DNA of 23,744 nt, from positions 1 through 23,744 of the IMG/VR virus record IMGVR_UViG_3300036845_000055. One strand, written 5' to 3'. Of this stretch, positions 4,717-23,744 are shown piece by piece. The notes under the pieces were generated by a model. That model worked only from the letters and a program-made list of their open reading frames with translations, was not told the DNA's origin and did not search any database. The stretch's first letter is position 1; every line of letters begins with the position of its first letter. The translations under genes and the position numbers were made by a program. The stretch is from a virus.

Positions 4717-7236
4717 GTGCCGCAGCTCCCGCCAGGTGGCGGACCGCCGTATCTTCCGCTTAACGGTCCTTCTAACCCCGGCGAACCGTTTACCTCGTGG
4801 GTGTTCCCGCAAGGCATGCCCTTGCAGCCGGCGATCACTCATGTCAACGCCGGGTCAATCAGTGCCTCGGGTGCATCGGCAGCCGCGTACTCAGTCACGA
4901 TCCCAGCCGGCACCGGTATTCAGCCCGGCGACCTGATCGTCGTCAACGCGAACTCCAATGGCACGCATGTCACTAATGGCATGTCGGTGCAGGACTCCGT
5001 CAACCTGACGAACTACACGACGATTAAGGAGCAGGACCTTTCCAGCGCGTCAACACGCTGGATGCAGACGTTCTTCTACCAGACCAACGTCGCCATTGCT
5101 GACGGCTCGACGATCACCCTGACGCCGTATGCGTCGAATGTCGCCAGCTCGTTCTGCGTTGATATTTTCCGAGGCACGTCTGGCGCAATTGCCGCCACCG
5201 TCCAGGGAGTCAGCCCGGCCGCCGGGACGACGGTAATCGCGCCGGCATTGCTGACGGCTCCGCCGTCATTTAGCCTTGTCCTGTCGTTCGCGTCGTTCTC
5301 CACCTCGGCGACGAGCCTGTCGCCGCCGTCGCCGCTGCCGTTCACGCTCGGATCAAACCGGCTGACTACGCCGGCAGTTGGCATCGCCTACGTTCTGGCG
5401 GCTAACGGGCTCAGTACCTACAGTGTTACCTGGACTAACGACAGCTCGCAGTCCAATGCGGCCGAGACGGTCGCGTTTGGCGCGCTGTCCACCACCGGGA
5501 ACCTTACAGTCCCGCCGCTACGCGGCCCGGTCGTGGCTGCCAGCAGGCCGCTGCCGCCGCGTGGCCGGTGCATGACAGTCGTAGGGATTCCCTACGATTC
5601 CGTTTCGCCACCGCCTCCTGCCCTTCACGGGCCGGTTGCGGCAGTTAGTCGTTTCCTGCCACCTCGCGGGCGAATCGGCAGTAATCCTGGCGTAGCGACG
5701 GCTGTTGCCCCGGCATCGGCTACGCTTTACCCGTTGCACGGCCCGGTGCAGGCACCTCAGCCGCTGCCAGTCAGAGGGCGGGCTCAGGGCCGGGCTGGAA
5801 CATTCACGGCGGCTCCGACTCCGGCTCCGCTGTACCCGCTTCACGGGCCAGTTGCGGCAGCCGGCCGTAGTCTCGGAATCCGGGGACGGAACCGCAGTAG
5901 TAATGGCGTCTTCAGCCAGCTCGGCCCGGCCTTCACGCAGCTTCGCCGGCCGGTTGCTGCGATCAGTCGTCCTCTGCCGTCACGCGGACGGGCATCTAGC
6001 AATCAAGGTATCTACAATCAGGTCGGACCGCGGCTAACGCCACTTCAGCGAGCCCTCCAGGCTCGCCAGCCTCTTCCGGCGCGAGGAAGAGCATACGGGC
6101 GTACCGGAATTTACGGTCAGCTCGGCCCGGCTCTTACCCCGTTGCAGCGGCCAGCTGCAGCTCGCCTTCGTGTACTGCCACTGCGTGGCCAGATTTACCG
6201 TAACGCCGGCACGCGCGGCCAGCTGGGTCCGTCACTGACGCCGCTACATCAGCCGGTGCAGGCTCGCCAGCCACTTCCGCTGCGTGGCCGTACATACCGT
6301 AACCCTGGCGTGCCTGGCCAGGCAGGCCCGGCTGTTTACCCGCTACATCGGCCAATTCAGGCGCGGTACATCCTGCCGTCACGCGGCCGGACGATAAGCC
6401 GTGGTGGCACGTTCTCAGTATTCACACCGGTTTCCGGGCCTCCGCTTTATCCTCTGCATGGCCCCATTCAGGCACGTCAGCCACTACCGCAGCGCGGTCA
6501 TACTGACACGCTTATCTCGATCCCGCTGTATTACCTGGGACCTTCGCTGACACCGCTTCAGCGTCCGGTGGCGGCCAGAATTCAGCCGCCTCAGCCGCTG
6601 AAGGGCCGGACGCAGTGGCGTCAGGGAACAAGTGCGCAAGTCGGCCCGCCGGTCTACCCGCTTCACGGCCCGGTGAAGGCTGCGTTCCGCACGCTGCCGC
6701 CGAAGGGCTCAGCACAGGGACGCGCTGGCGTACGTAACCAGACCGGCCCGGCTGTCAAGCCGCTTACCCGGCCGGTTTTCACGTTCTCGCCAGCACCACG
6801 GCGCGGAACGAACACCAGCCGGGCAGCAATTACAACGCTGCCGTTCGCTCAGGCGGTGCTGTACCCAAGGCACGGTCCAGTCAAGGCGCAACCTCCGCTG
6901 CCGTCTCGCGGGCGCAGTTACCGGACGCCACCGTATGTTACGCCGCTAATCCCAGTTCACGGACCGCCGCTTACTCCGCTGCATGGTCCCGTGCGCAGCC
7001 GGATCTTGCCGGCAATCCGAGGCGGCACGGCACACGGCCTGGCGGGCAATCTTATCTCCAAGCCAGTTGAGTTCAGTGTTTTTAACCCGTTCTCGAGTTG
7101 GATACTGAACATCCCGCAGACGGCGTGGACAACTGGTAATGTTGCCCTGAACTGGAACATTAGCGCCTCAGCACCAGGGTCAATGTGGATAACGGGCAGC
7201 ATCAGCGGAAACTGGTTCCTGGGCAACCCGGATTAG
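4717..7236 (+). CDS. Large virion-surface protein with about 15 Pro/Arg-rich repeats
   Basis: 839 aa, GTG start 7 nt after AGGAGG. Three parts are visible. Residues about 37-262 form an all-beta domain (GIQPGDLIVVNANSN motif, typical of phage tail or fibre jelly-rolls). Residues about 265-786 consist of about 15 degenerate units of 33-38 residues, each built around PLHGPVxARxxLPxRGR, then a variable linker ending in GP. Residues about 790-839 form a Trp-rich C-terminal domain (FSSWILNIPQTAW, ALNWNIS, GSMWITGSISGNWFLG). The repeats are basic and Pro-rich, with no predicted helix, suggesting an extended, regularly folded rod or a flexible arm. No peptidase or glycosidase motif is seen. A fibre or tail-associated role is inferred from context. 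Proteins of similar repeat style occur in actinobacteriophages as far as I recall, but without a known function. Confidence 0.8.
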   Translation: MPQLPPGGGPPYLPLNGPSNPGEPFTSWVFPQGMPLQPAITHVNAGSISASGASAAAYSVTIPAGTGIQPGDLIVVNANSNGTHVTNGMSVQDSVNLTNYTTIKEQDLSSASTRWMQTFFYQTNVAIADGSTITLTPYASNVASSFCVDIFRGTSGAIAATVQGVSPAAGTTVIAPALLTAPPSFSLVLSFASFSTSATSLSPPSPLPFTLGSNRLTTPAVGIAYVLAANGLSTYSVTWTNDSSQSNAAETVAFGALSTTGNLTVPPLRGPVVAASRPLPPRGRCMTVVGIPYDSVSPPPPALHGPVAAVSRFLPPRGRIGSNPGVATAVAPASATLYPLHGPVQAPQPLPVRGRAQGRAGTFTAAPTPAPLYPLHGPVAAAGRSLGIRGRNRSSNGVFSQLGPAFTQLRRPVAAISRPLPSRGRASSNQGIYNQVGPRLTPLQRALQARQPLPARGRAYGRTGIYGQLGPALTPLQRPAAARLRVLPLRGQIYRNAGTRGQLGPSLTPLHQPVQARQPLPLRGRTYRNPGVPGQAGPAVYPLHRPIQARYILPSRGRTISRGGTFSVFTPVSGPPLYPLHGPIQARQPLPQRGHTDTLISIPLYYLGPSLTPLQRPVAARIQPPQPLKGRTQWRQGTSAQVGPPVYPLHGPVKAAFRTLPPKGSAQGRAGVRNQTGPAVKPLTRPVFTFSPAPRRGTNTSRAAITTLPFAQAVLYPRHGPVKAQPPLPSRGRSYRTPPYVTPLIPVHGPPLTPLHGPVRSRILPAIRGGTAHGLAGNLISKPVEFSVFNPFSSWILNIPQTAWTTGNVALNWNISASAPGSMWITGSISGNWFLGNPD
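5509..7074 (+). repeat. Degenerate protein-coding repeat array, about 15 units of roughly 100-115 bp
   Basis: Within the 839-aa protein, the core PLHGPVxARxPLPxRGR recurs about 15 times. Examples are LHGPVQAPQPLPVRGR, LQRPVAARIQPPQPLKGR, LHGPVKAQPPLPSRGR and LHQPVQARQPLPLRGR. Units are separated by 15-20 variable residues that often end in G-Q-L-G-P. The DNA copies have diverged strongly in third positions, so the array is old and maintained at protein level. Units 6-9 are the best conserved; units 13 and 15 are the most degenerate. Confidence 0.85.
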
Positions 7237-8873: not shown

Positions 8874-11603
8874 GTGGCAGGCAGAGGATCAGTCCTGAGT
8901 GGCCTGCGGGCTGCCCAGAACTACGCGACGAGCAGCTCGGGCGGGTCAGCCCCACACCCGAGCTATGTCTCGCCGCTCCTCGGCCAGTACGCACAGTGGA
9001 CAATGGGCCGTCAGTCCCAGTCCATGTCACTGCCACGCGACCCGCTTGAGTTCCTGACCGGCGCATTCGGGCCTCTTCAGCCAATCAAGCCCATCGGGGT
9101 TGACCAGCCGCAGCCGGGCGATCAGCGCCCGATCCCGCGCCGGTGGCAGTACCCGGTTGCCTGGAACATGCCGGTTGGCACTCCCGGCTCAGAGGGCCTC
9201 AAGCTAGCTGACTTCGGAACACTCCGGCTCTATGCTGAAATATATTCCGTGGCGCGTGCATGCATCCAGCTTCGCAAGGATGAACTTCTCGGCATCGGCT
9301 GGGACATCGGCCCGACTTCCGAGGCCGCTAAGAAAATGCGCGGCGATCGTAAGGCGCAGCGAGATTTCGGTGAGCGGCGAGCCGAGATGCTCAAGTTCTG
9401 GCGTCGTCCGGACCCGAACTACAACGACTTTACCACCTGGCTCGAGGCAGTACTCGAGGATGTCCTTGTAATCGACGCTCTTTCGCTTTACATGCATCCT
9501 GCGCGCCTTCCTGGTAAAGGTGTTGTTGGTTCTGACCTGGCTGGGCTTGACCTTATCGCAGGCGAGACCATCAGGCCGCTGCTGGACCTGCGAGGCGGCA
9601 GTCCTGCCCCGCCGAACCCGGCATACCAGCAGTACCTGTATGGCGTCCCGCGGACTGATCTCATGACGGTCCTGACGGGTGAGGACCTGAAGGACATGGA
9701 CGGGCCGGTTCACCAGTACCGGTCTGACCAGCTGCTATACCTCCCGCGCAATCCGCGGTCATGGACTCCGTACGGGCAGGCTCCGATGGAGCGCTGCATC
9801 GTCCCGGTCATCACGGGCCTGCGGCGGCAGCAGTACCAGATGGACTACTACCTTGAGGGCACGATCCCGGGGATGTTCGTCTCGCCGGGTGACCCGGACA
9901 TGACCCCGAACCAGCTCCGGGAACTCCAGGACACCTTGAACGCCCTTGCCGGTGACCAGGCATGGAAGCATAAGATCATCGTCCTGCCTGCCGGGTCGAA
10001 GGTTGACCCGCAAAAGCCACCTGAGCTGAGTGACCAGACTGACGAAGTCCTCATGACCGAGGTCCTCATGGCGTACTCCGTCATGCCCCTCGAGCTTGGC
10101 ATCCTGCCAAAGATTGCTGCTACCCAGACGCCCAGCTCGGCCCGCCTCGGCCAGGATCAGGGTGATGTCCAGGAGCGCAAGACTGTTAAGCCTGATCTGC
10201 TGTGGCTGAAGAATGCCTTGTTCGACAAGATCATTCAGGGCATCTGCAATCAGCAGGACATGGAGTGGCGCTGGGACGGCCTTGAAGAGGACAAGGACGA
10301 AATGATCATGACTCAGCTTCTGACTGAGCAGATCAACGCCGGCCTCATTTCCATCGACGAGGGCCGTGAGGAAATCGGCCGTGACCCGTGGGGCATGGAA
10401 ATCACGGGAGACCCGGGATGGGGAACAGCCGCAGGCTTCATGCCGCTCGGGGCGATCAATCCCGACACCGGAATGCCGGCTGCACAGGAGGCGCAAGGCT
10501 TTGCCCCGAACGGCGTTCCCGCTATCCCCGGCAGTCCGGCCGGGTCATCGCGCTCGGGAAACGTCAGGCGAGGTGGCCCTCCAGTTGCGCCGGGACCGCG
10601 GCGGCCAGCAAGCGCGGGACCGCAGACCGCACCGCCGCCGAAGCCGGGGTCTCGCCCGCAGTCACCCTCACACGACGCGGCGGCGGCCGGCCAGGCAGCG
10701 AACCGGAAGCCCCGAGCAACCCCGAAGGCGATGCTGTCTGAGCTTGACATGCTCGGCCGTCACCTGAACAAGGGACTTCAGATTTCGCAGTGGGAGCCTC
10801 GCCACATCCCAGGGCGCAGTGTCTCTGACATCTCGGAGGCCATGGCTAACGGCCTGACGGCCGCAATGGCAGTTGAGATCGAGAAGGCAAAGCTGTCGTC
10901 CAAGCGTCCCGGTCATGACCCTGATTACGGAGACACTGAGCCGAACGATCAGGGGCCGCTCAGCCCTGGCACGGACATCGGGCCGTCATATGACGGGCAC
11001 TCCAGTGTCTACGGGCAGTGGGAGAACAGCACGCTTGCCGCCCCGCCCGGCGGAATCGAAGGGCAGTGGGGCAACAACGCGGGACCGTCCGGAGGCGCAG
11101 GGCAGCCAGGTGGCCAGACGCAGTACACAAACATGGGGCCAGCCGTCAAGGCTGCTGGCGGCAGCCTGGCGGCCAAGATCAAGGCGCAGCTTCTTGAGGA
11201 TTACCCGCTTGACTCCATGGACTGGATCGACGGAATCAAGTGGACTGGCCCCGTGGAAGTTCCGTCTGAGAAACTTGACACGGATGGCCGCAAGACCTGG
11301 AACGCCTGGCATGAGAAGGACAGAGTCAGGTCAATCGCTAGCAAGATCCGGCGTAAGAAGGCCAAGGGACAGCACGTCAAGCCGGCTGTCATTCTTGACT
11401 TGCCTGACACTGAGCGTAATGATCAGTACCGGGTTATTGACGGACATCACCGGACCTTGGCCTCGATGCAGGCCGGTGAGCCGCTGTGGGCCTGGGTGGG
11501 TACGGCAAGCAAAGTCAAGGGTCCGTGGGACGAATTCCATGCAGACCAGAAGCGTGAGGGCAAGGGCACAGACGCTTATGCTGATGAGCCCTCCAGCAAG
11601 TAA
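8874..11603 (+). CDS. Portal protein with C-terminal ParB/sulfiredoxin-like domain
   Basis: 909 aa, GTG at 8874, AGGAGAAA just before it. Residues about 100-525 are the portal: ARACIQLRKDELLGIGWDI, then DQLLYLPRNPRSWTPYGQAP, TNQ-type stem region with GTIPGMFVSPGDPDMTPNQL, and the wing/clip stretch LMAYSVMPLELGILP, ending with NAGLISIDEGREEIG. Twelve such subunits form the DNA channel at the capsid vertex. Residues about 540-620 are a Pro/Gly/Arg-rich linker. The C-terminus (794-900) has VEVPSEKLD, a PAVILDLP strand and V-I-D-G-H-H-R (D856-R860) followed by TLASMQAGEPLWAWVG, the ParB/Srx-type motif known from phage MuF-associated proteins. Typical portals have 450-550 residues, so the extension is nearly as long as the core. 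Confidence 0.9.
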   Translation: MAGRGSVLSGLRAAQNYATSSSGGSAPHPSYVSPLLGQYAQWTMGRQSQSMSLPRDPLEFLTGAFGPLQPIKPIGVDQPQPGDQRPIPRRWQYPVAWNMPVGTPGSEGLKLADFGTLRLYAEIYSVARACIQLRKDELLGIGWDIGPTSEAAKKMRGDRKAQRDFGERRAEMLKFWRRPDPNYNDFTTWLEAVLEDVLVIDALSLYMHPARLPGKGVVGSDLAGLDLIAGETIRPLLDLRGGSPAPPNPAYQQYLYGVPRTDLMTVLTGEDLKDMDGPVHQYRSDQLLYLPRNPRSWTPYGQAPMERCIVPVITGLRRQQYQMDYYLEGTIPGMFVSPGDPDMTPNQLRELQDTLNALAGDQAWKHKIIVLPAGSKVDPQKPPELSDQTDEVLMTEVLMAYSVMPLELGILPKIAATQTPSSARLGQDQGDVQERKTVKPDLLWLKNALFDKIIQGICNQQDMEWRWDGLEEDKDEMIMTQLLTEQINAGLISIDEGREEIGRDPWGMEITGDPGWGTAAGFMPLGAINPDTGMPAAQEAQGFAPNGVPAIPGSPAGSSRSGNVRRGGPPVAPGPRRPASAGPQTAPPPKPGSRPQSPSHDAAAAGQAANRKPRATPKAMLSELDMLGRHLNKGLQISQWEPRHIPGRSVSDISEAMANGLTAAMAVEIEKAKLSSKRPGHDPDYGDTEPNDQGPLSPGTDIGPSYDGHSSVYGQWENSTLAAPPGGIEGQWGNNAGPSGGAGQPGGQTQYTNMGPAVKAAGGSLAAKIKAQLLEDYPLDSMDWIDGIKWTGPVEVPSEKLDTDGRKTWNAWHEKDRVRSIASKIRRKKAKGQHVKPAVILDLPDTERNDQYRVIDGHHRTLASMQAGEPLWAWVGTASKVKGPWDEFHADQKREGKGTDAYADEPSSK

Positions 11604-11618: not shown

Positions 11619-12212
11619 ATGGCGTCATCGTCAATTGTTAACCCTGAGCTGAACCAGACCCAGGCCGCCTGGGAGATGCTGGCCCTGACTATCGATGGCC
11701 TGCTTGGCGCAACAAACAGCAGCCGGTACGTCGGAGCCACGGCGTCAGGTGCACCAACGACAGGCATTTTTGTTCTCGGTGACTGGATCATCGACCTGAC
11801 GGGCAAGGTCTGGATTTGCACGACCGCGGGTCAGCCGGGAACCTGGACAAATCTTGTAGCCGCGAGCCTGCCGGCCGCGGGCGGGACTGTGTCAGGACTG
11901 CTGACCCTCGGCGGTGGCACGGCGACAAACAGCTCGGCCCCGATCATCGCCGCACCTGGCTTCTCGGCAGGAGCAGCATCACAGCTTTCTGACCTGACTC
12001 GTGACTATATGGTCTACCTGACGGTGGGCACGGGTGGTGGCACGTTCGGGATTTCCATCGGCCCGGCAAACACGACGGTGGATGTCATCATCCCGACGGC
12101 AACGGTTGGCGTTGCCGGTGTTGGCTACACTGTCCGGCTGCCGGCTAGCTGGTGGCTGAAAGTTACGGCAACAACCTCAACCATCGCTAACCAGATTGCT
12201 GTCGGGTGCTAA
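11619..12212 (+). CDS. Putative structural protein between portal and MuF
   Basis: 197 aa, ATG 11619 with GGAGGCTA right upstream. The N-terminus is a short helix (LNQTQAAWEMLALTIDGLL), followed by SSRYVGATASGAPTTGIFVLGDWIIDLTGKVWICTTAGQPGTW (residues about 33-75), a beta motif common in phage fibre and decoration proteins (YxGAT-x-GxPTTG-x-F-x-x-GD-x-hydrophobic-D). A Gly/Ala-rich spacer and a C-terminal beta domain follow. It interrupts the usual direct portal-MuF neighbourhood, and the MuF gene starts at the base after its stop (TAAATG), so the two are probably coupled. No enzymatic motif is visible. Confidence 0.7.
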   Translation: MASSSIVNPELNQTQAAWEMLALTIDGLLGATNSSRYVGATASGAPTTGIFVLGDWIIDLTGKVWICTTAGQPGTWTNLVAASLPAAGGTVSGLLTLGGGTATNSSAPIIAAPGFSAGAASQLSDLTRDYMVYLTVGTGGGTFGISIGPANTTVDVIIPTATVGVAGVGYTVRLPASWWLKVTATTSTIANQIAVGC

Positions 12213-13883
12213 ATGACAGCCTGGCCGGGGTGGGAAGAGGATCAAGAACTCTCTGAGCGGTACACGCGCAAAATCCGGAGCTCAGTCCGCGGGTGCGTCA
12301 ACGCCCGAGAGCTGATCACGGCCTGGGACACCATCAGTGCGATCCCGCAGCGCTGGGTTCCTGGTGACGCTGAGTCATTTCTCATGGCACAGGTTGCAGG
12401 CCGGATACAAGGTGTCATGGCTGAGCTGCTCGACCTTCTCTGGCAAGATGCGTGGGAACTCGGGGTTGCGAGTGCGGTGGCTCTGGCCGGTGACGGCATC
12501 GCGCCAGTCCAGAAAGGGAAGTCTAAGGACTTCGAACGCAAAGTCAAGTGTGATCTGGGACATGAGCACAACAGCCATGCCGCTGCCGGGCTCCTGATCC
12601 GGCATAAGCCGCCAGGTGAGAAGCGGAAGTGGCTGCTTCAGAAGCGCGGTGACGTCTCTGATTCCGGTATGTGGGAGATTTTTGGCGGTGCGCTTCATAA
12701 GGGCGAGCCTCCTTACCAGGGGGCGTGGCGTGAGGCTGAGGAAGAGGCAGGCAAGCTGCCGTCTAACCTGACGCTACACCATAAGGTTATTAATGATCAC
12801 GGTGGATGGACGTACACGACGTTCCTCATGGATAGTCCCGAGCTGTTCAACCCGACGCTGAACGGCAGTACGCCGGGTGAGGTTGCCGGGGCTGGCTGGT
12901 TTACTCACAAGGAAGTAAAGGGCCTTCCGCTACATCACGGCTTTGCTGACTGCTGGGATGTCCTCAGGCACAGCACGCAGGACACGGCAATCAACGCCGC
13001 GATGGCAAAGCGGTGGAAGAACCCGTTTCCGGGCGGGACGGCAGCCCCGCTGCCGGACGATCCGTGGGAGGACATCTACAACCGGCTGATTGCCCGGAGG
13101 GTTCCGCCGCTGCTTGCCGGCCCGCTTGCGTCGGCGTTCCTGACGTGGGAAAGCAATGACGGGGCATCAAGCATCATTGCCATGATCCGGACTCTCGTTA
13201 CGAAAATTGCGGGGGTCTTGCTCAGGCGGCGAGCGGGAACAATTACCTCGCGAGAAGCCGTCCAGGAAATAGACACGATTACTGGCAACGAGCCGCACAT
13301 GCGGCGCATTGCGACGACTGAGATTTCCGAGGCCGTCAACGCGGCTGCCCGCGAGACTTATATCGTCACGAATGAGATCGAGTATGTTCAGTGGGTAGTC
13401 GCTGACGCCGGGGCTTGCGCAGTATGCAAGATGAACGCAGCGGCGGGAGCCATCCCGATCGATCATGCATTCCCGTCCGGGGCCGTCCTGCCTCCTGAGC
13501 ACCCGAACTGCCGGTGTGCAATTATCCCGGCAGCAGTCCAGCCGCCGACCCGGCACGAGGAAATGCTGACGCCATGGAGTATGGCTAAGTCAGCCGAGAC
13601 GCCGTACCTGAGCAGTCATCACGCCCCGATCGGGCATGAGGGGCTGTGGCATTCGAAGAACCCGCCACTTCAGCTGCCGGCTTACATCCAGAACATCAGG
13701 AACGCCCTGATGCGAAGTGGCATGGACGAGCGCAAGGCGCACGCGATGGCTGTTGCAGCCGTTGAGCGCTGGGCAAAGGGTGACCTGAAGTGGGGCCCGA
13801 CCAGGCATGTAACACCAGAGGTTCGTGCAGCTTCAGCTGATGCGGTGCGTCAGTGGGAAGCACTCAGAGCGAATCATCCATAA
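12213..13883 (+). CDS. MuF-type head protein with embedded NUDIX hydrolase domain
   Basis: 556 aa, ATG directly after the previous stop. Residues about 110-265 are a NUDIX domain: CDLGHEHNSHAAAGLLIRH, a WLLQKRGD strand, then the Nudix box at 159-181, with G159, E165, R173, E174, E177, E178 and G180 all in the GX5EX7REUXEEXGU positions; only the last hydrophobic place is Lys181. These glutamates bind Mg and cleave nucleoside diphosphates linked to another moiety. Residues about 355-435 are the MuF domain: RRIATTEISEAVNAAARETY, ACAVCKMNAAAG (401-412) and PPEHPNCRCAII (428-439). Residues about 465-556 carry the LPAYIQNIRNALMRSGM and VTPEVRAASADAVRQWEAL segments seen in related head proteins. MuF proteins attach inside the head near the portal and can be ejected with DNA. 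The combination is unusual. Confidence 0.88.
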   Translation: MTAWPGWEEDQELSERYTRKIRSSVRGCVNARELITAWDTISAIPQRWVPGDAESFLMAQVAGRIQGVMAELLDLLWQDAWELGVASAVALAGDGIAPVQKGKSKDFERKVKCDLGHEHNSHAAAGLLIRHKPPGEKRKWLLQKRGDVSDSGMWEIFGGALHKGEPPYQGAWREAEEEAGKLPSNLTLHHKVINDHGGWTYTTFLMDSPELFNPTLNGSTPGEVAGAGWFTHKEVKGLPLHHGFADCWDVLRHSTQDTAINAAMAKRWKNPFPGGTAAPLPDDPWEDIYNRLIARRVPPLLAGPLASAFLTWESNDGASSIIAMIRTLVTKIAGVLLRRRAGTITSREAVQEIDTITGNEPHMRRIATTEISEAVNAAARETYIVTNEIEYVQWVVADAGACAVCKMNAAAGAIPIDHAFPSGAVLPPEHPNCRCAIIPAAVQPPTRHEEMLTPWSMAKSAETPYLSSHHAPIGHEGLWHSKNPPLQLPAYIQNIRNALMRSGMDERKAHAMAVAAVERWAKGDLKWGPTRHVTPEVRAASADAVRQWEALRANHP

Positions 13884-13903
13884 GAAAACAATTTTGGAGG
13901 CCC

Positions 13904-16885
13904 GTGGCCGTCATCACTGACCAGCCGGAAGGTGCGCTGGCCTTCGATAAGATCTTCAGCTTCCCGATCGAGAAGTCAAAGACGGAAATCACCGCTGATG
14001 GTGACATGTTCGTGTACGGGAAGTGCACGGACGGGCGCATTGACGCTGATGAGCAGATCGTTGACCCTGAGTGGTCAGCAGACGCCTTGTCTAAGTGGTT
14101 CGAGACGGGTGCCAACGTCCGGCAGCAGCATGACCCGAAGAAGCCGGTCGGCAAGGGCATGCACATCGAGCTGAACCGAGATGCAGACGGCGGCCACTGG
14201 CTGCGGGCTGAGGTCGTTGACCGAGACGCTCAGCGCCTTGTCAAGAAGGGCGTCCTCCAGGCATTCTCGGTCGGCATCATGAAGCCCAAGATCTTCGCTC
14301 ACAACAAGGCTCGCGGCGGCATCATCAAGGGCGGCGAGATGGGCGAGGTTTCCCTCGTTGACCGGCCAGCTAACTCGGGCTGCGGCTACGCAATCGTCAA
14401 GGCAACCGGCAACGGCACGCCAGAGTACATCGGCAAGCTGTCCGGTGACGCCGGTGTCCTGCGCAAGGCGCTTGGCATCGATCCTCGTGACATGCTGAAG
14501 ATGCCGCAGCCTGAGAAGGGCGTTGTCCCGGGCATCATCCGGTCGAGCGTGTTCGCTGACCCAGTCTCGAACCGGCTGAATGACGCGCTCCAGGACGAAG
14601 ACCTGCTGATGAAGCGGGACTTCTCCGCATCCGCCCGGCGCAGGTCAGCCAGTTCCGGGCACGCCATGTCTGACGGGTCGTTCCCGATCGAGAACGGCGG
14701 CGACCTCGACAACGCTATTCACCTGGCCGGTCATGGTAAGAACCCGGCTGCTGCTCGCTCGCACATCCGCCGTCAGGCATCCCGGCTTGGGCTGTCAGAC
14801 AAAATTCCCGACACCTGGAAGATGGCAGGTGACGCCGAGGATATCAGCGACCTGACGTCCGGACTCACTGAGGAGCTAGTGAAGGCTATCAATGAAGGGC
14901 TCGCATCAGTGGACGAGGTTCGCGAGGAACTCGGCAAGACGGCTGAGCCTGATCTCGTCAAGTGCGCAACTTGCGACGGCTCAGGCACGATCCGCGGTGG
15001 CGCAGTTGCCTGCCCGGACTGCAAGGGCAAGCCGGGCAAGGGTGACGAGGATGGTGTCGGCAAGTCACTCGCGCCGCCGGATGACGGTGACGACGATGAT
15101 GACGATGATGATGACAAGGACACCGGCGGCAGCGACTCTGACACCGGTAACAACACCAGTGGCAAGTCAGCTCGCACCGGCAGTGGCGGTGGCCTTGCAC
15201 TAGGCAAGAAGCCTCGTAACAGGGGTAATGGCGCGGGAGCCAAGCCGAGTGCTGACGTACAGGACAACAGCATGTCGGATGACTCCGCAAGTGGCCCCAA
15301 GGGCCGTAACTACTCAGGCAACAAGACCAGCAAGAAGTTTGCCTGCTCTAGCTGCGGGCACAAGGCCTTGAAGAGCGCGGCGTTCTGCGCTGGCTGCGGA
15401 GCTGAGTTTGTCGGCAAGCGGGGTGACCCGGCAGCAGGCGTTGTCGCCAAGAAGCCGACGAAGCCACTTCCGTCACACCGCGAGCCTGACGGCAATGTCC
15501 AGGATCTTGAGGGTGACGCAGGGCTGCCGTCCAGCCGCGAGAGCGACGGCCGTGACAACCAGCTGAATGCAATGGGCTGGGACAGCAGCGGCAAGCCGCC
15601 GGCTGGTGCAGCACTGCTGGATGGTGGCAGCAGCGCAGTCGGAGTCGGTAGTGGCAACAGCACGTCAATGGGGCGCAAGGGCTTCCCGGCTCCGTATTCT
15701 GTCGCCCGGATGCATGATGCTACCTGCTCGGCTTACAGCCTCCAGGTTGTCCTTGATGAGTACCCGTCGCTGGCAAAGGTTGCTGACGCGATGGATGTCG
15801 AGGACATCCGCATGCAGGCGTCAAAGGCCCTCGCTGACGGCGACTATGACCTGTCTGAGCTGATGCTTGGCGTTGCCCGCAATGCCGACATCGTGATCAA
15901 GACTGACGCGGATATTGTCGAAGACGTTCACGCCGACATGCACAAGGGCTTCCAGTCCATGTACCCGACGGCCAAGCCAACTCCTGGCTCAGTCTCACCT
16001 GGCATGTTTAAGCGGCCGTACGTGGACGCCGGGCACGCCCCGCTATCAGCTGAGCCGCGCAAGGCTGACCCGGCTGTCCCAATGCCGCCGGAGGCCCCGA
16101 ACGCCCAGGACTTCACGCGTGGCGCGCTCACTGCCGGTGAGCAGCGCGAGAGCCCAGGCAAGCAGACTGACACCGCCCGGGCAAAGCCGGGACGGCGCTT
16201 CTACTCAAACATGGCTAAGACTGACGCACGGACTGCCATGCAGGCCGTCCATGACCACGTCTCGTCCATGTTCCCGGACCTCTGCCCGCTGAATGCCCAG
16301 ACCGCACTGCCAAGCCCGATGGCAAAGGCAGAGGGCAGCGAGCAGCCGCAGAACCTCAACCTTCAGGCAGGCGAGATGACTCCCGAGGACGTGACCAAGG
16401 CCGTGCAGGAGGCCCTCCTGGCTGCCGGATACGACCCGCAGGGGATTAGCGCTGAGCGCTCAATGCCTGCTACCAGCAACCTTCCAGACGTCCAGCAGGG
16501 CCGTGCAACGGCATCGCTGGTCAAGGCCAGCAAGAGCAAGAATGCAGTTGCTCCTGCCGGCCTCTCTCCTGAGGATGTGGCTGAAATCGTTAAGTCAGCG
16601 ACAACGCCACTTCTCGACCAGATTTCCCAGCTCTCCACCCTCGTGGATAAGCTGGGCTCACAGCCTGATCCCGCACAGGCCCCTAACCGCGGGATGGTGC
16701 TAACAGGCAGCCAGGTCACAACGGGCGGTGCCCGGCCAGCGGAACGGCGTTCCCTGGTGGACGAGGCTGCGGTTAAGGCACGTGATGAGAAGCTCCGGTA
16801 CCTCCAGAGTTTCTCGCAGTCCGGCGACCCGACCATGCGCATGATGGCCGAGGAGCAGATTCACAAGATGCTAACCGCAGATTAA
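13904..16885 (+). CDS. HK97-type prohead protease fused to long scaffold-like region
   Basis: 993 aa from GTG 13904, with TTGGAGG at ideal distance; the frame is open upstream, but that part overlaps the MuF gene. Residues about 20-180 are the S78 prohead protease: H76 in NVRQQHDPKKPVGKG and S122 in LQAFSVGIMKP correspond to the catalytic His and Ser (HK97 H65/S114). Residues 257-305 form a DGSFPIENGGDLDNAIHLAG-type helical domain. Next are a DnaJ-like CxxCxGxG module (C354, C357, C370, C373), a poly-Asp stretch near 392-405, and a zinc ribbon (C481, C484, C495, C498). The C-terminal region is helical (VTKAVQEALLAAGYD, LLDQISQLSTLVDKLG), as in scaffolding domains that the protease removes during maturation. 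Typical proteases have about 200-250 aa, so this is exceptionally long. Confidence 0.88.
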   Translation: MAVITDQPEGALAFDKIFSFPIEKSKTEITADGDMFVYGKCTDGRIDADEQIVDPEWSADALSKWFETGANVRQQHDPKKPVGKGMHIELNRDADGGHWLRAEVVDRDAQRLVKKGVLQAFSVGIMKPKIFAHNKARGGIIKGGEMGEVSLVDRPANSGCGYAIVKATGNGTPEYIGKLSGDAGVLRKALGIDPRDMLKMPQPEKGVVPGIIRSSVFADPVSNRLNDALQDEDLLMKRDFSASARRRSASSGHAMSDGSFPIENGGDLDNAIHLAGHGKNPAAARSHIRRQASRLGLSDKIPDTWKMAGDAEDISDLTSGLTEELVKAINEGLASVDEVREELGKTAEPDLVKCATCDGSGTIRGGAVACPDCKGKPGKGDEDGVGKSLAPPDDGDDDDDDDDDKDTGGSDSDTGNNTSGKSARTGSGGGLALGKKPRNRGNGAGAKPSADVQDNSMSDDSASGPKGRNYSGNKTSKKFACSSCGHKALKSAAFCAGCGAEFVGKRGDPAAGVVAKKPTKPLPSHREPDGNVQDLEGDAGLPSSRESDGRDNQLNAMGWDSSGKPPAGAALLDGGSSAVGVGSGNSTSMGRKGFPAPYSVARMHDATCSAYSLQVVLDEYPSLAKVADAMDVEDIRMQASKALADGDYDLSELMLGVARNADIVIKTDADIVEDVHADMHKGFQSMYPTAKPTPGSVSPGMFKRPYVDAGHAPLSAEPRKADPAVPMPPEAPNAQDFTRGALTAGEQRESPGKQTDTARAKPGRRFYSNMAKTDARTAMQAVHDHVSSMFPDLCPLNAQTALPSPMAKAEGSEQPQNLNLQAGEMTPEDVTKAVQEALLAAGYDPQGISAERSMPATSNLPDVQQGRATASLVKASKSKNAVAPAGLSPEDVAEIVKSATTPLLDQISQLSTLVDKLGSQPDPAQAPNRGMVLTGSQVTTGGARPAERRSLVDEAAVKARDEKLRYLQSFSQSGDPTMRMMAEEQIHKMLTAD

Positions 16886-16906: not shown

Positions 16907-18787
16907 ATGGCGCAGATTATTGACGACGTCTCGGACGTCGCGAAGGATGCGGCGAGTGAGTCCGCATGGTATGAGACGCCCGTAGACATGCTGGCTGGCC
17001 GTATGCCAGAGGCAGTCAAGGGCGCAGGCTTTGCCCTCGGGCGAGGCAACAAGCCGCTTGACAACCCGGATGAGATCTTCGACCGCTCGTTCAAGGCGAC
17101 GAAGGCCCTCCGGGCCGCCACCTTCAAGGGCTACACGGCCCCGGACGAGGTGCGGAAGTCGCTGAACCCGGCGTTCTCGTCGCAGTTCGGCATGTTCATG
17201 GCTGGCGGAACCCCAGGGTTCGGCAACAACGGCCTGGGCAATCTTGTTGACCAGATCAACAGCGCATTCAAGCAGACCGACGCGCTGAAGAACTTCACCC
17301 TGACGTCCCCGCTGTCGTCTGGCTTCGTGCCGTTCGACCTCGTGGCACCGTCTCGGCTCATCTACCCGGTTTACAGCCCGCTGCGGAACAAGATCCCGCG
17401 GACGCCCGGGCAGGGCACCTCACGGCGCGTCAAGGTCACGACCGGTATCTCCGGCTCGCAGACGGGCGGCCAGGGTGTTGTTGACATCTCGATCCCGGAG
17501 CTTGTGTCCGGCTCATCGATCACCGGCACATGGCCGCTGAACCTGCCAGGCTCAGGCGCGCAGACTGCCGTTGACCTCAACGTGCCTTACCAGTTCTTCG
17601 GCCTTACCGAGGCGCTGTCATGGCTGGCGCAGTTCGCCGGCCAGGGCTTCGAGGACATTTCTGCCCTCGCCAACCTAATCCTCCTCCAGGAGTTCATGCT
17701 GGCTGAGGAGTACGCCATGATCGCGGCTACCCCGGTCAACCTCGTTGCTCCTGGTGCCCCGACTCTGGTTGCCCGCACCGCGGGCTCAAACGAGACGGCA
17801 ATCACCTACTCCAGCGGTGTTGTCGTCTGCGTTACGGCCGTGAACTACTACGGCGAGACAATTGCCTCGTCAACCGTTCACGCCACTGGTACCACCTCGA
17901 CCACGACAGTCGTGGACGTCACGATTGCCCCGGTTGCCGGCGCGCAGCAGTACAACCTGTACGTGGCTGACTCCGCAACAGCGGGTCTTGCCTCGGCTAC
18001 CCACCTTTACGTCGGCACCTCAGTGCAGGCAGGCGTCTCGTATGCAGGCAACCAGCAGGCTGGCTCAGTCGGCGGCCTGAAGTTCACGCTTCAGGGCGTT
18101 ATCAACGGCCCGCTGACGGGTGTTGCCCCTCCGATTGCCGACACCGGCACTGGCAAGTCCACCCGCATGGCCGGCATCATCCCGGTCCTCTCGGGCCAGG
18201 CTGCGACTGCTGGCGTGTACCCGACCTCCCCGGTCTCATGGCAGGGTGGTTACCTCAACCAGAAGCTGGGCACCCACCTCAGCATCACCGGTGTTAACAA
18301 CGCCCTCCAGGCGCTGTTCGACGGCTCCGGTGCGAACTCGCCGGGATCGTTCCGCGCTGACCCTGCCGAGCTGATCGGTGAAGGTGGCGACCTGATGCGC
18401 ATGTCTAACGACATCGTGCAGTCAGGCGCGGCTACCAACTACCGGCTCAACCTCGACCAGGGCCAGATGGCTGGGGTCCGGACCGGTGCGGCCGTGTCCG
18501 AGTTCCAGAACCCGATCACCCGGTCGATTATCCAGCTGCTGGTTCACCCCTGGTTCACCCAGGGCACGGCCATGCTGATGTCCTACACCCTTCCGTTCAC
18601 CTGGTCGAACGTGGCCAACGTGTGGGAGATGGTCATGGTGCAGGACTACCTCAGCATCTCGTGGCCAGTCATTGACGCAACGTTCCGGTACTCACTGTTC
18701 CAGTACGGCGCGCTCGTCTCGCAGGCACCACAGTACTGCGCCCTGATCCAGGGCATCCAGCAGTCGGACACTACCCCTTACAGCTGA
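16907..18787 (+). CDS. Major capsid protein (HK97 fold) with Ig/FN3-like insertion
   Basis: 626 aa, ATG 16907, AGGAG upstream, 21 bases after the protease/scaffold gene, the standard position for the capsid gene. The N-terminal part (1-110) is the delta/N-arm region; features such as FVPFDLVAPSRLIYPVYSPLRNKIPR (about 140-165) and EALSWLAQFAGQGFEDISALANLILLQEFMLAEEYAMI (about 228-265), a long spine-like helix, fit phage capsid proteins. Residues about 280-390 read as an extra beta domain: PGAPTLVARTAG, VCVTAVNYYGETIASS and VAGAQQYNLYVADS are FN3/Ig-type strands. The C-terminal part holds the A-domain-like segments TLPFTWSNVANVWEMVMVQDYLS. A perfect hairpin terminator follows. There is no membrane segment. 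Confidence 0.87.
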   Translation: MAQIIDDVSDVAKDAASESAWYETPVDMLAGRMPEAVKGAGFALGRGNKPLDNPDEIFDRSFKATKALRAATFKGYTAPDEVRKSLNPAFSSQFGMFMAGGTPGFGNNGLGNLVDQINSAFKQTDALKNFTLTSPLSSGFVPFDLVAPSRLIYPVYSPLRNKIPRTPGQGTSRRVKVTTGISGSQTGGQGVVDISIPELVSGSSITGTWPLNLPGSGAQTAVDLNVPYQFFGLTEALSWLAQFAGQGFEDISALANLILLQEFMLAEEYAMIAATPVNLVAPGAPTLVARTAGSNETAITYSSGVVVCVTAVNYYGETIASSTVHATGTTSTTTVVDVTIAPVAGAQQYNLYVADSATAGLASATHLYVGTSVQAGVSYAGNQQAGSVGGLKFTLQGVINGPLTGVAPPIADTGTGKSTRMAGIIPVLSGQAATAGVYPTSPVSWQGGYLNQKLGTHLSITGVNNALQALFDGSGANSPGSFRADPAELIGEGGDLMRMSNDIVQSGAATNYRLNLDQGQMAGVRTGAAVSEFQNPITRSIIQLLVHPWFTQGTAMLMSYTLPFTWSNVANVWEMVMVQDYLSISWPVIDATFRYSLFQYGALVSQAPQYCALIQGIQQSDTTPYS

Positions 18788-19385: not shown

Positions 19386-20093
19386 GTGCCTGCTTACACA
19401 CCACCGCTGAACGAGACAACGTCTCCGTACCTGTTTGACAGTGCCGTCTCAATCGGTGGCGCTGCGGCATGGACATCGCTGTCTCCGTGGGCCCCGGCTG
19501 ACTTCGGCTTCAAGGCCTGGAATATCCCGACGTACTTCGCAACTGGCACGTCAACGTTCAATGTCGTCGGCTCGGTTTACCTGACGACAATGCACCTTAC
19601 GGCCAACCAGACGTATTCCAACATCTACGTCAGCGTCCTGGCTTCCGGTGGCACGGCAACAGCCGGGTCATGCTTTGCCGGAATTTACAACTCAGCCGGC
19701 ACGCTTGTAGCCACGACTGCTGACATCTCGGGTGTCTTGGGAACAGGTGCCGCAAACCTTGGCAACCTGGCATTCCCGCTGTCCACCTCGTACACGCCAT
19801 CTGCTGGCGGCCTGTTCTACGTTGGCATGTTCTTCAACACATCGGGTACGGCTTCATTCCCGGTGCTGAGGAGCATGGTAGGCCAGACGGCAGCTAACGG
19901 CCTGACGGCCTGGGCTGGCACCGTTGGCTGGGCGGGGCTTAACGGAACTGGTGCAGTCGGCACTGGTACCAACGTCGCTCCGTACCCGTGGTCAGCGATT
20001 GCCACGACGTCAGCAACTTCCATGCCGGCGTCATTCACCCTTGGCTCAGCTGGTACCACCGGTGCTACATGCTTCTGGTGCGGTCTGGCGTGA
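19386..20093 (+). CDS. Beta-sandwich virion protein, fibre or decoration type
   Basis: 235 aa, GTG 19386 with TGGAGG upstream. The central part (residues about 58-165) shows a clear beta sandwich: VVGSVYLTTMHLTANQTYSNIYVSVL, a Gly/Thr turn, SCFAGIYNSAGTLVATTADISG, and GGLFYVGMFFNTSGTASFPVL. This order (VYLT-hydrophobic-hydrophobic, SxFAG-hydrophobic-Y-xxAGTLhAxTAD, YYVG) recurs in phage virion proteins with a lectin-like or appendage role. It has no catalytic motif. Its stop overlaps the next gene's GTG (GTGA), which couples it to the sugar cassette downstream and may mean that its product and the cassette act together. No specific family name is claimed. Confidence 0.72.
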   Translation: MPAYTPPLNETTSPYLFDSAVSIGGAAAWTSLSPWAPADFGFKAWNIPTYFATGTSTFNVVGSVYLTTMHLTANQTYSNIYVSVLASGGTATAGSCFAGIYNSAGTLVATTADISGVLGTGAANLGNLAFPLSTSYTPSAGGLFYVGMFFNTSGTASFPVLRSMVGQTAANGLTAWAGTVGWAGLNGTGAVGTGTNVAPYPWSAIATTSATSMPASFTLGSAGTTGATCFWCGLA

Positions 20094-21163
20094 CAACCCT
20101 TGCCGTGGTCGGCGGATGCGGGCACGTGGGCTTGCCCCTCGCGCTTGCGTTCGCTGGCCACGGCGTGCAGGTTACCATCCAGGACATCTCAGAGGAGCGA
20201 GTCAGGCAGGTGGCCATGGGCCATATGCCATTCATGGAACCTGGCTGCGCAGATCTTCTTGATTATGTCTTGGAGGAGGGGCTGCTTCATGTCACTACTG
20301 ATCCTCAGGCTATTTCTGAGGCTGAGAACATCATTGTCATCACGGGCTCTGGCCTGTCTGACGTGCTGCCGTGGCTTCGCAATGGCCAGCTCGTCATCCT
20401 CCGGAGCACCGTCCGGCCGGGAACACTCGCCGAGGCTGAAAAGGAAATGGCAGCCGCCGGGCTTGCAGTTGATCTTGCGTTCTGTCCTGAGCGCATTGCC
20501 GAGGGTCATGCCCTGACTGAGCTTGCTGAGCTACCGCAGCTGATCGGGGCTCACAGCCAGCAAGCCTACCAGCGAGCAGTGTCGCTGTTCTCCCTGATTA
20601 ACGGGCGCATCATCGGGATGACCCCGGAAGAGGCTGAATACGCCAAGCTCTTCACGAACGCGTGGCGGTACATCCAGTTCGCAGCGGCTAATCAGTTCTG
20701 GATGCTGGCAACATCGGCGGGGCTGGAGTACGAGGACATCAGGCAGGCTATGATGCTCTCATACCCGCGCCTTGACACCTTGCCTAAGGCAGCTTTTGCC
20801 GCCGGGCCGTGCCTTCCAAAGGATACCCGGCTTCTGAACTGCCCGCTCGGTGACGCGGCGCTTGCCGTTAATGAGGGTCAGCCTGCGTTCCTGGCTGATT
20901 TCATCGCAAAAAATTATGACCTGCCAGCCATGACAATCGGGATCTTGGGGATGACATTCAAGCCGGGGTCAGATGACGTCAGGAACAGCCTGTCATACGA
21001 TCTCCGGGATGAGCTCCTGAAGAACGGTGCCTTGCGCGTTTTCTGCACCGACCCCTATATCGCGTCTCTGCCATCTCTTAACGAAGTCCGGGAGGCTTCT
21101 GACTTGCTCATCATCGCTACGGCCCATCCGGAGTATGACGGCATAACCGGGATCCGGATGTGA
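20090..21163 (+). CDS. UDP-glucose/GDP-mannose-type nucleotide-sugar 6-dehydrogenase
   Basis: 357 aa from GTG 20090, which overlaps the previous stop (GTGA); an in-frame ATG at 20069 is less likely. The N-terminus TTLAVVGGCGHVGLPLALA (residues 2-20) is the NAD-binding GxGxxGLP loop. FCPERIAEG lies mid-domain. AEYAKLFTNAWRYIQFAAAN is the central helix with the conserved Lys and Asn. C241 in GPCLPKDT is the catalytic cysteine that oxidises the sugar C6 alcohol to a carboxylate in two NAD-dependent steps. ILGMTFKPGSDDVRNS begins the third domain. Products are uronic or aminuronic acid nucleotides (UDP-GlcA, UDP-ManNAcA and similar); the substrate cannot be read from sequence. At 357 residues it is shorter than usual (about 400-440). 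It works in the cytoplasm, likely with the epimerase next to it. Confidence 0.85.
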   Translation: MTTLAVVGGCGHVGLPLALAFAGHGVQVTIQDISEERVRQVAMGHMPFMEPGCADLLDYVLEEGLLHVTTDPQAISEAENIIVITGSGLSDVLPWLRNGQLVILRSTVRPGTLAEAEKEMAAAGLAVDLAFCPERIAEGHALTELAELPQLIGAHSQQAYQRAVSLFSLINGRIIGMTPEEAEYAKLFTNAWRYIQFAAANQFWMLATSAGLEYEDIRQAMMLSYPRLDTLPKAAFAAGPCLPKDTRLLNCPLGDAALAVNEGQPAFLADFIAKNYDLPAMTIGILGMTFKPGSDDVRNSLSYDLRDELLKNGALRVFCTDPYIASLPSLNEVREASDLLIIATAHPEYDGITGIRM

Positions 21164-22128
21164 GCCGCGTCCTAGTCACCGGCAGCGCCGGTTTCATCGG
21201 TACTTATCTCACCACTGAGCTGGTAAGCCTCGGCTATGAAGTCCGTGGACTCGATAATTTCAGTAAGTATGGCCGGGTCGATCGTGACTATGATCTCGTA
21301 GAGGGAGATTGTAAGAGCCTCGAGACTGTCACCAATGCGCTTGAGGGATGCGATCATCTTATCGCAGGTGCTGCGAAAATCGGCGGGATCGAGTATTTCC
21401 ACAAGCTCCCCTATGACTTGCTGGCTGAGAATGAGCGTATCATGGCGGCTACGTGTGACGCCGCCATTGAGCAATTCAAGAACGGCCAGCTGAAGAAAGT
21501 TACTTACATTTCGTCCTCGATGGTGTACGAGAGCACGAACATGTGGCCGTCGTTTGAGGGCGATGAGCTAGACGTCCCGCCTCCGCGCAGCAGCTACGGT
21601 TTCCAGAAGCTAGCCGTGGAGTACTGGGCCAGGGCGGCTTACGAGCAGTACGGTGTCCCGTACACCATCGTCCGGCCGTTTAACTGCGTCGGTGTTGGTG
21701 AAGATGCCTACATGTCGCACGTAGTCCCTGATCTTGCACGGAAAATCCTGAGCGGCCAGGACCCCCTGCAGATTTACGGAGACGGCTACCAGATCAGGCA
21801 TTACACATACGGCGGAGACCTTGCCAGGGGCATTGTCATGGCAATGGAGCATCCGGCGGCTCTCTGCCAGAGCTTCAACCTCTCATCGTCTGTCAGCACG
21901 ACTGTCCTGGAACTGGCGCATCTTATCTGGCGTAAGATCAATAAGAATAAGCCATTCCGGCACATTACCCTTCCGGCCTTTGAGCATGATGTAGCCTGCC
22001 GCATCCCGGACACGTATAAGGCGGAGACTATCCTGGGCTTCAAGGCTGAGACAAGCCTCGAGGAGATGGTGGACATTACCATCGAAGCGATTAGGAAGGA
22101 ACAAGACAATTCGTATCCTATGGCATAG
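21160..22128 (+). CDS. NAD-dependent nucleotide-sugar epimerase/dehydratase (extended SDR)
   Basis: 322 aa, GTG 21160 overlapping the dehydrogenase stop (GTGA). Residues 7-14 (TGSAGFIG) are the GxxGxxG NAD-binding loop. S118-S120 in ISSSMVYES and Y146-x3-K150 (YGFQK) form the catalytic set of extended SDRs. RPFNCVGVGED, GDGYQIRHYTYGGDLARGI and the late HDVACRIPDTYKAETILGF match the sugar-binding half of UDP-glucose 4-epimerase/UDP-glucuronate decarboxylase relatives. Following the 6-dehydrogenase, plausible reactions are decarboxylation of a UDP-uronic acid or epimerisation of a uronic acid nucleotide. The exact substrate is not readable. The C-terminus overlaps the glycosyltransferase frame by about 20 bases. 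Confidence 0.85.
   Translation: MSRVLVTGSAGFIGTYLTTELVSLGYEVRGLDNFSKYGRVDRDYDLVEGDCKSLETVTNALEGCDHLIAGAAKIGGIEYFHKLPYDLLAENERIMAATCDAAIEQFKNGQLKKVTYISSSMVYESTNMWPSFEGDELDVPPPRSSYGFQKLAVEYWARAAYEQYGVPYTIVRPFNCVGVGEDAYMSHVVPDLARKILSGQDPLQIYGDGYQIRHYTYGGDLARGIVMAMEHPAALCQSFNLSSSVSTTVLELAHLIWRKINKNKPFRHITLPAFEHDVACRIPDTYKAETILGFKAETSLEEMVDITIEAIRKEQDNSYPMA
22093..22111 (+). promoter_or_regulatory. Ribosome binding site and probable ATT start of glycosyltransferase
   Basis: AGGAAGGA at 22093-22100 is followed after 8 bases by ATT at 22109. The glycosyltransferase frame has no ATG, GTG or TTG near this point, while the conserved N-terminus (ILWHSNAPW) begins at the third codon after ATT. The nearest alternative ATG, at 22208, would remove about 33 conserved residues. 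ATT starts are rare (infC is the classic case), so this may be real low-level initiation, coupled to the overlapping upstream gene, or the result of a sequence error or frameshift. Confidence 0.45.
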
Positions 22129-23744
22129 TAACGCTCCGTGGATCAATACGGGCTACGGCCAGCAGACGGCAGTATGGCTGCCACGGATCGCATCTCTCGG
22201 TTATGAGATGGCAGTCTCAGGCCCGTTCAGCTTTGCCGGGTCATCTATGACCTGGAAGGAATGGACGGTCCTCCCCGGAGCCGGTGACCCGTTCGGGTCT
22301 GACGTTATCCAGGGCCACTACGCCGTGCACAAGGCTGACTTCATGATCACGTTGTGTGACGTGTTCATGATGAACCCGGAAGTTCTCAAGCCGCTGAACG
22401 TCGCGTGCTGGACGCCGGTTGACTGCAAGCCGCTCAGCGTCCAGGATAACCGGGTTCTGCGGGAATCTGAGGCCCACGTCATCGCGATGAGCGAGTTCGG
22501 CAAGGACCTGCTCCGCGAGAGTGCGTACCATCCGATGTACGTCCCGCACGGTATCGACACGTCAGTGTTCACGCCGGGTGACGACCGGATGGACTTGCGC
22601 CGGCAGATGGGCATTTCCGAGAGCACGTTTGTTGTCGGTATCAATGCCGCCAACAAGGAAGGCCCACGCAAGGCTTTCCAGGAGCAGATCCAGGCGTTCG
22701 CCGCATTCCACAAGCGGCACCCGGACTCGCTCCTGATGCTCCACACGAACGTCCATGCGGGCAACAAGCTCCAGCCGCTGATCGAGTACCTGGGCATCCT
22801 GCCAAAGGTTATGGTCCCGAATCAGTACTCGTACGCGACGGGCATGATGGGCACTGACCAGGTGTCAAACTGGTACCGAGCCTGTGACATCTTGTCTATG
22901 GTGTCATACGGCGAGGGCTTCGGTGTCCCGGCAATTGAGGCTCAGGCGTGCGGTACCCCGGTTGTCGTGAATAACTTCTCAACTGGCCCGCAGGTTAAGG
23001 GTGCCGGCTGGATGGTTGAAGGCGAGCCGTACTGGGTGGACGGGCACTGTGCCATGTGGCAGCGGCCCGACATCTCAGGCATCGAGGATGCCTACGAGCA
23101 AGCATGGGAGACCAGGGAAAGCGGCGCAATGCCGGAACTTCGCGAGAAGGCCCGGGCGTTTGCCGAGCAGTATGACGCAGACCTGGTTCTTGAGAAGTTC
23201 TGGAAGCCGGCCCTCGCGCAGATCGAGGACAGCATCCCGCACACCCGCCGGGTTCTGGCAGGCGAGCAGGACAGCGTGCCGCTGCCAAGCGCAGTCTCTG
23301 ACGGGCGTGACCTGGCCGTCATCGTTCCTAGCCGCGGCCGGCCGGCAAATGTCAAGCGCCTGATTGACGCCGTGACTGACACCAAGACACTCCCTGGCAC
23401 TCACCTGTGGTTTGCGTTTGACGACAACGACGAGACTCTTCAGGAGAGCCTGGCCATCTGTAAGGAAGCAGAAGGCAAGGGCGTCAATGCCGTGTTCGGG
23501 CCACGCATGTCTCTCGCTGGCTGGACGAACAAGCTGGCCGAAGAACTTCACGATCACTATCACGCACTGGCTTCGTTCGGCGATGATCATGTCCCGCAGA
23601 CCCCGGGCTGGGACGCCGAGCTGATGAAGGCCATCGGCGAGTGCGGGATTGCGTACCCGAACGACCTGGTGCGCGAGGACGTGTGCGAGGCCGTCGTTAT
23701 GTCATCGGCCATCGTCAAGGCCCTCGGCTGGATGGCTGAGCCGA
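22109..23744 (+). CDS. Two-domain glycosyltransferase: GT-B (GT4-like) plus GT-A-like (partial)
   Basis: At least 545 codons, open to the right edge of the window. Residues about 3-360 are a GT4-type GT-B domain: RILWHSNAPWINTGYGQQT start motif, VPHGIDTSVF (the usual V-P-H-G-hydrophobic-D), and E269 and E277 of the EX7E nucleotide-sugar motif in GEGFGVPAIEAQACGTP. From about residue 401 a second domain begins with DLAVIVPSRGRP, and contains a GDDH metal-site motif (D492-D493-H494) and TPGWDAELMKA, typical of a GT-A transferase family found in phages. The fused enzyme could add two successive sugars. Donor and acceptor are unknown, but the dehydrogenase and epimerase upstream suggest an acidic sugar or derivative. 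The start codon is uncertain (probably ATT 22109). Only the end is missing. Confidence 0.82.
   Translation, partial: MRILWHSNAPWINTGYGQQTAVWLPRIASLGYEMAVSGPFSFAGSSMTWKEWTVLPGAGDPFGSDVIQGHYAVHKADFMITLCDVFMMNPEVLKPLNVACWTPVDCKPLSVQDNRVLRESEAHVIAMSEFGKDLLRESAYHPMYVPHGIDTSVFTPGDDRMDLRRQMGISESTFVVGINAANKEGPRKAFQEQIQAFAAFHKRHPDSLLMLHTNVHAGNKLQPLIEYLGILPKVMVPNQYSYATGMMGTDQVSNWYRACDILSMVSYGEGFGVPAIEAQACGTPVVVNNFSTGPQVKGAGWMVEGEPYWVDGHCAMWQRPDISGIEDAYEQAWETRESGAMPELREKARAFAEQYDADLVLEKFWKPALAQIEDSIPHTRRVLAGEQDSVPLPSAVSDGRDLAVIVPSRGRPANVKRLIDAVTDTKTLPGTHLWFAFDDNDETLQESLAICKEAEGKGVNAVFGPRMSLAGWTNKLAEELHDHYHALASFGDDHVPQTPGWDAELMKAIGECGIAYPNDLVREDVCEAVVMSSAIVKALGWMAEP

Follow-up and report, generated by a model that had tools for sequence, protein, structure and literature searches.

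A RenU-type NUDIX domain inside a MuF minor head protein as a probable virion cargo

The window analyzed here, a 23.7-kb IMG/VR virus record (positions 1 to 23,744), encoded a MuF minor head protein with an embedded NUDIX domain, which, as judged from sequence, is probably carried in the virion as cargo for use against the host. By its closest relationships in sequence and predicted fold, the domain is of RenU type. A head-borne hydrolase of ADP-ribose/NADH type, acting at the start of infection, would be the simplest reading of the analysis.

Architecture and genomic context of the NUDIX-MuF gene

The NUDIX-MuF gene (12213..13883, plus strand, as for all features below) was open in one frame from an ATG at 12213 to a stop at 13883 and encoded 556 amino acids. 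The original prediction had placed a NUDIX hydrolase and a MuF domain in a single polypeptide, and Pfam and PHROGs profiles recovered both. NUDIX (PF00293) matched residues 136-237 (E 9e-11) with 42.3 bits, well above the cut-off of 21.1. MuF membership was assessed with the models PF04233, PF25310 and TIGR01641, and MuF matches were near the cut-offs: VG15 (residues 356-440) scored 27.1 bits, just above 26, and Phage_Mu_F (residues 361-438, E 8e-6) 27.0 bits, below 29.6, with TIGR01641 at 26.3 bits, below 39.65. PHROGs matches were to a MutT/NUDIX hydrolase (E 6e-13) and to a minor head protein (E 2e-11, the best of several head families). The same single-frame fusion, with the same domain order, was found in a relative on a 97.9-kb contig (L010:10653-12329; 48% identity overall), and an assembly artefact was rejected on this ground.

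The protein was divided into four modules in the full-length AlphaFold2 model (helices 7-93, NUDIX 121-252, MuF 317-445 and C-terminal helices 490-554), with disorder predicted at residues 97-120, about 256-310 and about 451-484. The alignment behind this model (mean pLDDT 77) included WPGW-MuF pieces, and its pTM of 0.52 makes the relative placement of the domains uninformative. The N-terminal helical segment of the MuF protein, with a WPGW motif (residues 1-96, 12213..12500), is directly followed by MuF in most relatives having the segment. In the window it was followed by a disordered linker (residues 97-120, 12501..12572, pLDDT < 50), the NUDIX domain (residues 121-252, 12573..12968), a second disordered linker (residues 256-310, 12978..13142, pLDDT < 50) and the MuF helices and core (residues 317-445, 13161..13547), delimited with Pfam, PHROGs and the model. 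The predicted order, NUDIX ahead of the MuF core, thus held, and in the model the NUDIX domain is a separate bead on flexible tethers. The C-terminal helical module (residues 465-556, 13605..13880), traced with profiles and tblastn, formed its own gene in relatives or was joined to a ParB-like domain or to the protease.

Gene order in the window was portal, an extra small gene, NUDIX-MuF, an S78-type protease and a probable major capsid protein. The NUDIX-MuF gene occupied the place typical of MuF genes, between portal and prohead protease/major capsid, and by this gene order it sits in the late head cluster. The portal protein (8874..11603, 909 aa; PHROG portal E 2e-48, Pfam Phage_portal E 8e-9, below cut-off) had a C-terminal extension with a ParB/SerK-like domain carrying a DGHHR motif (11178..11573; weak matches to free serine kinase, SbnI and Noc). 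In relatives this ParB/SerK-like domain shifted among portal, own gene and C-terminal module gene, much like NUDIX. The extra gene between portal and MuF (11619..12212), identified as an ORF with a tail-fibre-like segment in PHROGs, lay in the MuF reading frame, with a single TAA directly before the MuF ATG; L010 lacked this gene, and its portal and MuF genes overlap. The S78-type prohead protease (13853..16885, 1010 aa; PF04586 E 6e-4 and TIGR01543 E 5e-5, both below cut-off) had a long C-terminal extension with zinc-ribbon-like CxxC segments (weak Pfam matches). The probable major capsid protein (16907..18787) was assigned from phrog_13692 (unknown function, E 9e-61), a weak major head protein match (E 0.07) and its position after the protease. 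Elsewhere in the window, positions 4717-7236 encoded an 839-aa protein with many degenerate LYPLHGPVQARQPLPxRGR-type repeats. After the head genes, positions 19988-23743 encoded a UDP-glucose/GDP-mannose dehydrogenase and an NAD-dependent epimerase (Pfam), together with a glycosyltransferase-like ORF recognized by eye, and sugar decoration of the virion or of the host is a possible function of these genes.

The Nudix box and the relationship to RenU

The Nudix box, GALHKGEPPYQGAWREAEEEAGK, was located exactly where it had been placed (residues 159-181, 12687..12755) and was nearly complete: against the consensus GX5EX7REUXEEXGU, the sole mismatch was the last of the 23 residues, K181 standing for a hydrophobic residue. 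All metal-binding residues were present, with E165, R173, E174, E177 and E178 intact. The pattern GX5EX7REXXEE was intact in 118 of 118 complete NUDIX domains (117 head-linked and the free-standing one of L007), a count that leaves aside one further domain cut by a contig end, and the five residues were conserved at 100%. A decayed NUDIX domain was rejected on these counts. A chance box was likewise rejected, because the pattern occurred 0 times in 2.3 million residues of other ORFs from the collected loci. Between the window and L010, identity was 52% in NUDIX versus 37% in MuF, and NUDIX dN/dS was about 0.2 with synonymous sites near saturation. Judged from these sequences, catalysis of the head-linked NUDIX domains is under selection. 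ADP-ribose pyrophosphatases carry a signature proline about 15-16 residues past the Nudix box; by eye, this proline was absent in the window domain, so that RenU is the sole guide to the substrate.

Structure prediction of the domain (AlphaFold2 with 35 relatives) returned the NUDIX alpha/beta/alpha fold with pLDDT 84 and pTM 0.81, as the original prediction required, and with the metal site intact. Foldseek gave 511 PDB matches at E<=0.001, and among the matches listed all were NUDIX enzymes or NUDIX-fold domains. Ranked first was RenU of M. smegmatis (6uuf; E 3e-11, TM about 0.75), at 37% identity over the aligned fold, a distance at which NUDIX substrates are hard to predict. The closest relative by fold agreed with the closest by sequence: in phmmer searches of PDB sequences, RenU scored 58 bits (E 6e-15) and the next match 18 bits. 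The family profile of the window NUDIX gave 52.4 bits for RenU versus 11.8 for T4 NudE. In a small NUDIX tree, the window domain, RenU, L010, L144 and L146 formed a supported clade with T4 NudE outside; RenU and T4 NudE were both long branches, which leaves the placement of NudE, and thereby the separation of the window domain from a NudE clade, unsure. RenU (MutT3 of mycobacteria) and the window NUDIX also had a C-terminal LPLH..F..W motif in common.

RenU hydrolyses ADP-ribose, FAD and NADH, not NAD+, with low activity on NTPs (PMC4401782). The wild-type enzyme has a Nudix box like that of the window domain, and it is inactive once three box glutamates are replaced (PMC4401782); all three were kept in the window domain. 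The two proteins differ in setting, RenU being a free-standing cellular redox enzyme whereas the window NUDIX is fused to a virion protein. The 6uuf chain reads RAAHAAAG in place of REXXEEXG and is apparently the inactive mutant described in the literature, with alanines at E74/E77/E78; its active-site metals are not directly comparable with the model because the box glutamates are alanines.

NUDIX positions among relatives and exchange with other enzymes

About 170 related viral loci were collected with alignment-based IMG/VR scans (the best 80 loci per scan) and typed with profiles built here; scans with single proteins (P0001, P0002, P0004) returned only one relative each, and alignments were needed. 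Survey queries held NUDIX, so that NUDIX frequencies are biased upward, and some contigs were near-duplicates. Across these loci the fusion was kept, at several positions. In this NUDIX-biased sample of the best 80 loci per scan, 128 of the 133 NUDIX-bearing loci harbored NUDIX in cis with portal or MuF, at differing positions. The commonest orders among these best 80 loci per scan were portal-NUDIX-MuF (37 loci) and portal-helices-MuF-NUDIX-ParB-like (35), alongside portal-NUDIX-ParB-like (13), portal-ParB-like-NUDIX (10) and portal-NUDIX with MuF as a separate ORF (10). The order portal-ParB-like / helices-NUDIX-MuF-C-terminal module was found, among the roughly 170 loci from the best 80 per scan, only in the window and L010. 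In the remaining 5 of 133 loci, NUDIX was encoded by a separate ORF next to the portal. Two of them were scanned with Pfam, and in both the start of the ORF truncated the domain (profile position 25); such ORFs may stem from a broken frame within a single gene.

Head-linked NUDIX domains fell into two clearly separate families. The RenU-like family comprised the window, L010, L001, L014-L020 and others, and the MutT-like family, whose box looks MutT-like, comprised most portal-NUDIX-MuF phages. Isolated phages also encoded such fusions: portal-NUDIX-MuF in Arthrobacter phages Mufasa8 and Sonali, MuF-NUDIX in Pam4, protease-NUDIX in Gilgamesh and 2H-protease in Edmundo. No full-length relative of the whole NUDIX-MuF protein was found by tblastn among isolated phages, and a profile search of genome contigs with the portal alignment yielded two MAG loci only.

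Several portals of the survey were unusual in other respects. An intein-like insert with C...TGN ends, about 340 aa long, interrupted the L010 portal gene (L010:7001-10714), and the portals of L143 and L182 were split by inserts at a similar place. The C-terminal portal extension of L161 carried a cysteine-rich segment, CDTCTMFRAPNGCTLVTGVIKPGDTCDRWYGG, ahead of NUDIX. Portals of L172, L165, L177 and L185 displayed a ParB-like domain and long extensions with no recognized enzyme, which may hold further cargo.

A 2H phosphoesterase (PF13563), with HxT motifs intact in 13 of 13, replaced NUDIX or stood alongside it in relatives. At least 8 changes between NUDIX and 2H were counted on a portal tree of 111 rows, and in two pairs of loci (L048/L100 and L046/L096) the portals were 91% identical, one encoding NUDIX and the other 2H. 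ADP-ribosyltransferases (ART) were also encountered. L164, from the same large portal clade as the window, had a separate helices-MuF (WPGW-MuF) gene without NUDIX and an ADP-ribosyltransferase (PF03496, E 2e-11); in L059, a single chain comprised portal, NUDIX and ART, whereas L104 carried 2H on the portal and ART on MuF. An enzyme domain in cis with a virion protein, as expected of a head-packaged effector, was thus found. The sequence pattern fits an interchangeable, catalytically selected virion cargo and not a structural part. That NUDIX might be a virion-delivered enzyme gained support as far as cargo-like behavior goes (NUDIX is an autonomous domain flanked by disordered linkers, occupies several positions and has repeatedly been exchanged with 2H); delivery itself is uncertain, since the prohead protease could cut both linkers.

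Possible roles and known systems

It is an even call whether the gene encodes a portal-vertex MuF protein with an active, tethered RenU-type NUDIX that is carried in the head, delivered, and hydrolyses NDP-X compounds of ADP-ribose type. The MuF part would bind the portal and bring a few copies inside the procapsid, a targeting by the portal that is known for SPP1 gp7 (PMC6316719). Carried in the head, NUDIX would enter the next host with the DNA and, if it acts like RenU, would hydrolyse ADP-ribose, its conjugates, NADH and FAD there. Early in infection it would most likely dampen alarm signals derived from NAD or alter NAD(H) metabolism, and in relatives the same role may fall to the second NUDIX family, to a 2H phosphoesterase or to an ADP-ribosyltransferase. 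The ADP-ribose type is our best guess for the substrate class, whereas nothing in the analysis pointed to alarmones, which the original prediction had also named.

Linkage to portal, MuF or protease would also place the enzyme at a site where signals are produced, if NUDIX acted at the portal during assembly or late infection and cleared ADP-ribose-type products of host TIR NADases clustered there. The portal dodecamer of SPbeta activates SpbK, which produces both ADPR and cADPR (PMC12847820), and RenU cleaves ADPR (PMC4401782). However, SpbK works by depleting NAD+, and hydrolysis of ADPR does not bring the NAD+ back, so that this role would need a signalling defence; it also presupposes that the portals of these phages are sensed, and for 2H and ART, the alternatives to NUDIX, action at the portal is not obvious. 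We regard it as unlikely.

Removal of NAD or other NDP-X caps from host RNA by a virion-delivered NUDIX is improbable. The NUDIX superfamily includes enzymes acting on NAD-capped and other capped RNAs (PMC9503650), and the 2H enzymes that replace NUDIX in relatives also act on RNA ends (PMC5512222); yet NAD+ is not hydrolysed by RenU (PMC4401782), and no RNA-binding module was recognized in the NUDIX-MuF protein. A MutT-like function in keeping the nucleotide pool clean near the packaged or incoming genome seems just as doubtful: the MutT-like box of the other head-linked family and the presence of MutT and MTH1 among the Foldseek matches would suit it, but the window domain is RenU-like, RenU has low activity on NTPs (PMC4401782), and a sanitizing enzyme would hardly be expected to trade places with 2H enzymes and ART. 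Least credible is a structural or regulatory module in which catalysis has ceased to matter, for although NUDIX belongs to a head protein, its metal-binding residues were never lost in 118 domains, and a purely structural role is rejected by its changes of position and its replacement with unrelated folds.

Iyer et al. 2022 described Nudix domains joined to MuF, to portal and to prohead protease and predicted that they are packaged (PMC9503650), and a 2017 survey reported several enzymes, 2H among them, fused to MuF and portal (PMC5512222); this kind of fusion is therefore already known, and the idea is not new. Like the window protein, the fusions of Iyer et al. 2022 join NUDIX to head proteins encoded in late gene clusters, and packaging and injection are predicted for them, but they were described as T4 NudE-like (PMC9503650), whereas the window domain groups with RenU. 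The window protein further differs from them in having NUDIX between the MuF helices and core, and a MuF protein separate from the portal. MuF-ART, other MuF effector fusions and SPP1 gp7 share with the present proposal the use of MuF as an enzyme carrier or portal-bound minor head protein (PMC5512222, PMC6316719), although the effector in such fusions is usually C-terminal and the window enzyme lies ahead of the MuF core. T4 NudE, a phage NUDIX annotated for FAD, diadenosine polyphosphates, ADP-ribose and NADH (record note), is free-standing and of a different NUDIX group. A literature search for NUDIX against Thoeris or in phage counter-defence gave only Iyer et al. 2022 on point. New as far as searched are the RenU-type enzyme in such a fusion, the insertion between the helices and the core of a MuF protein that is not joined to the portal (window and one relative), and the counted NUDIX/2H exchange on near-identical portals.

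More speculatively, and with little probability in our view, the portal-MuF region of many soil phages could be an exchangeable counter-signal slot, holding two independent NUDIX families, 2H or ADP-ribosyltransferase, swapped under pressure from host defences based on NAD or nucleotide signals, with the portal tether mattering since some defences are triggered there. It is commonly predicted that MuF proteins carry enzymes into the host cell, and the head-borne NUDIX described here has a characterized cellular relative, RenU, and a metal site that was never lost. Among close relatives, NUDIX and 2H stand in for each other on portals that hardly differ, which gives ready-made swap pairs, and the same type of fusion occurs in isolated Arthrobacter phages. 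Together these features make the role of a head-borne NUDIX testable in an ordinary laboratory.
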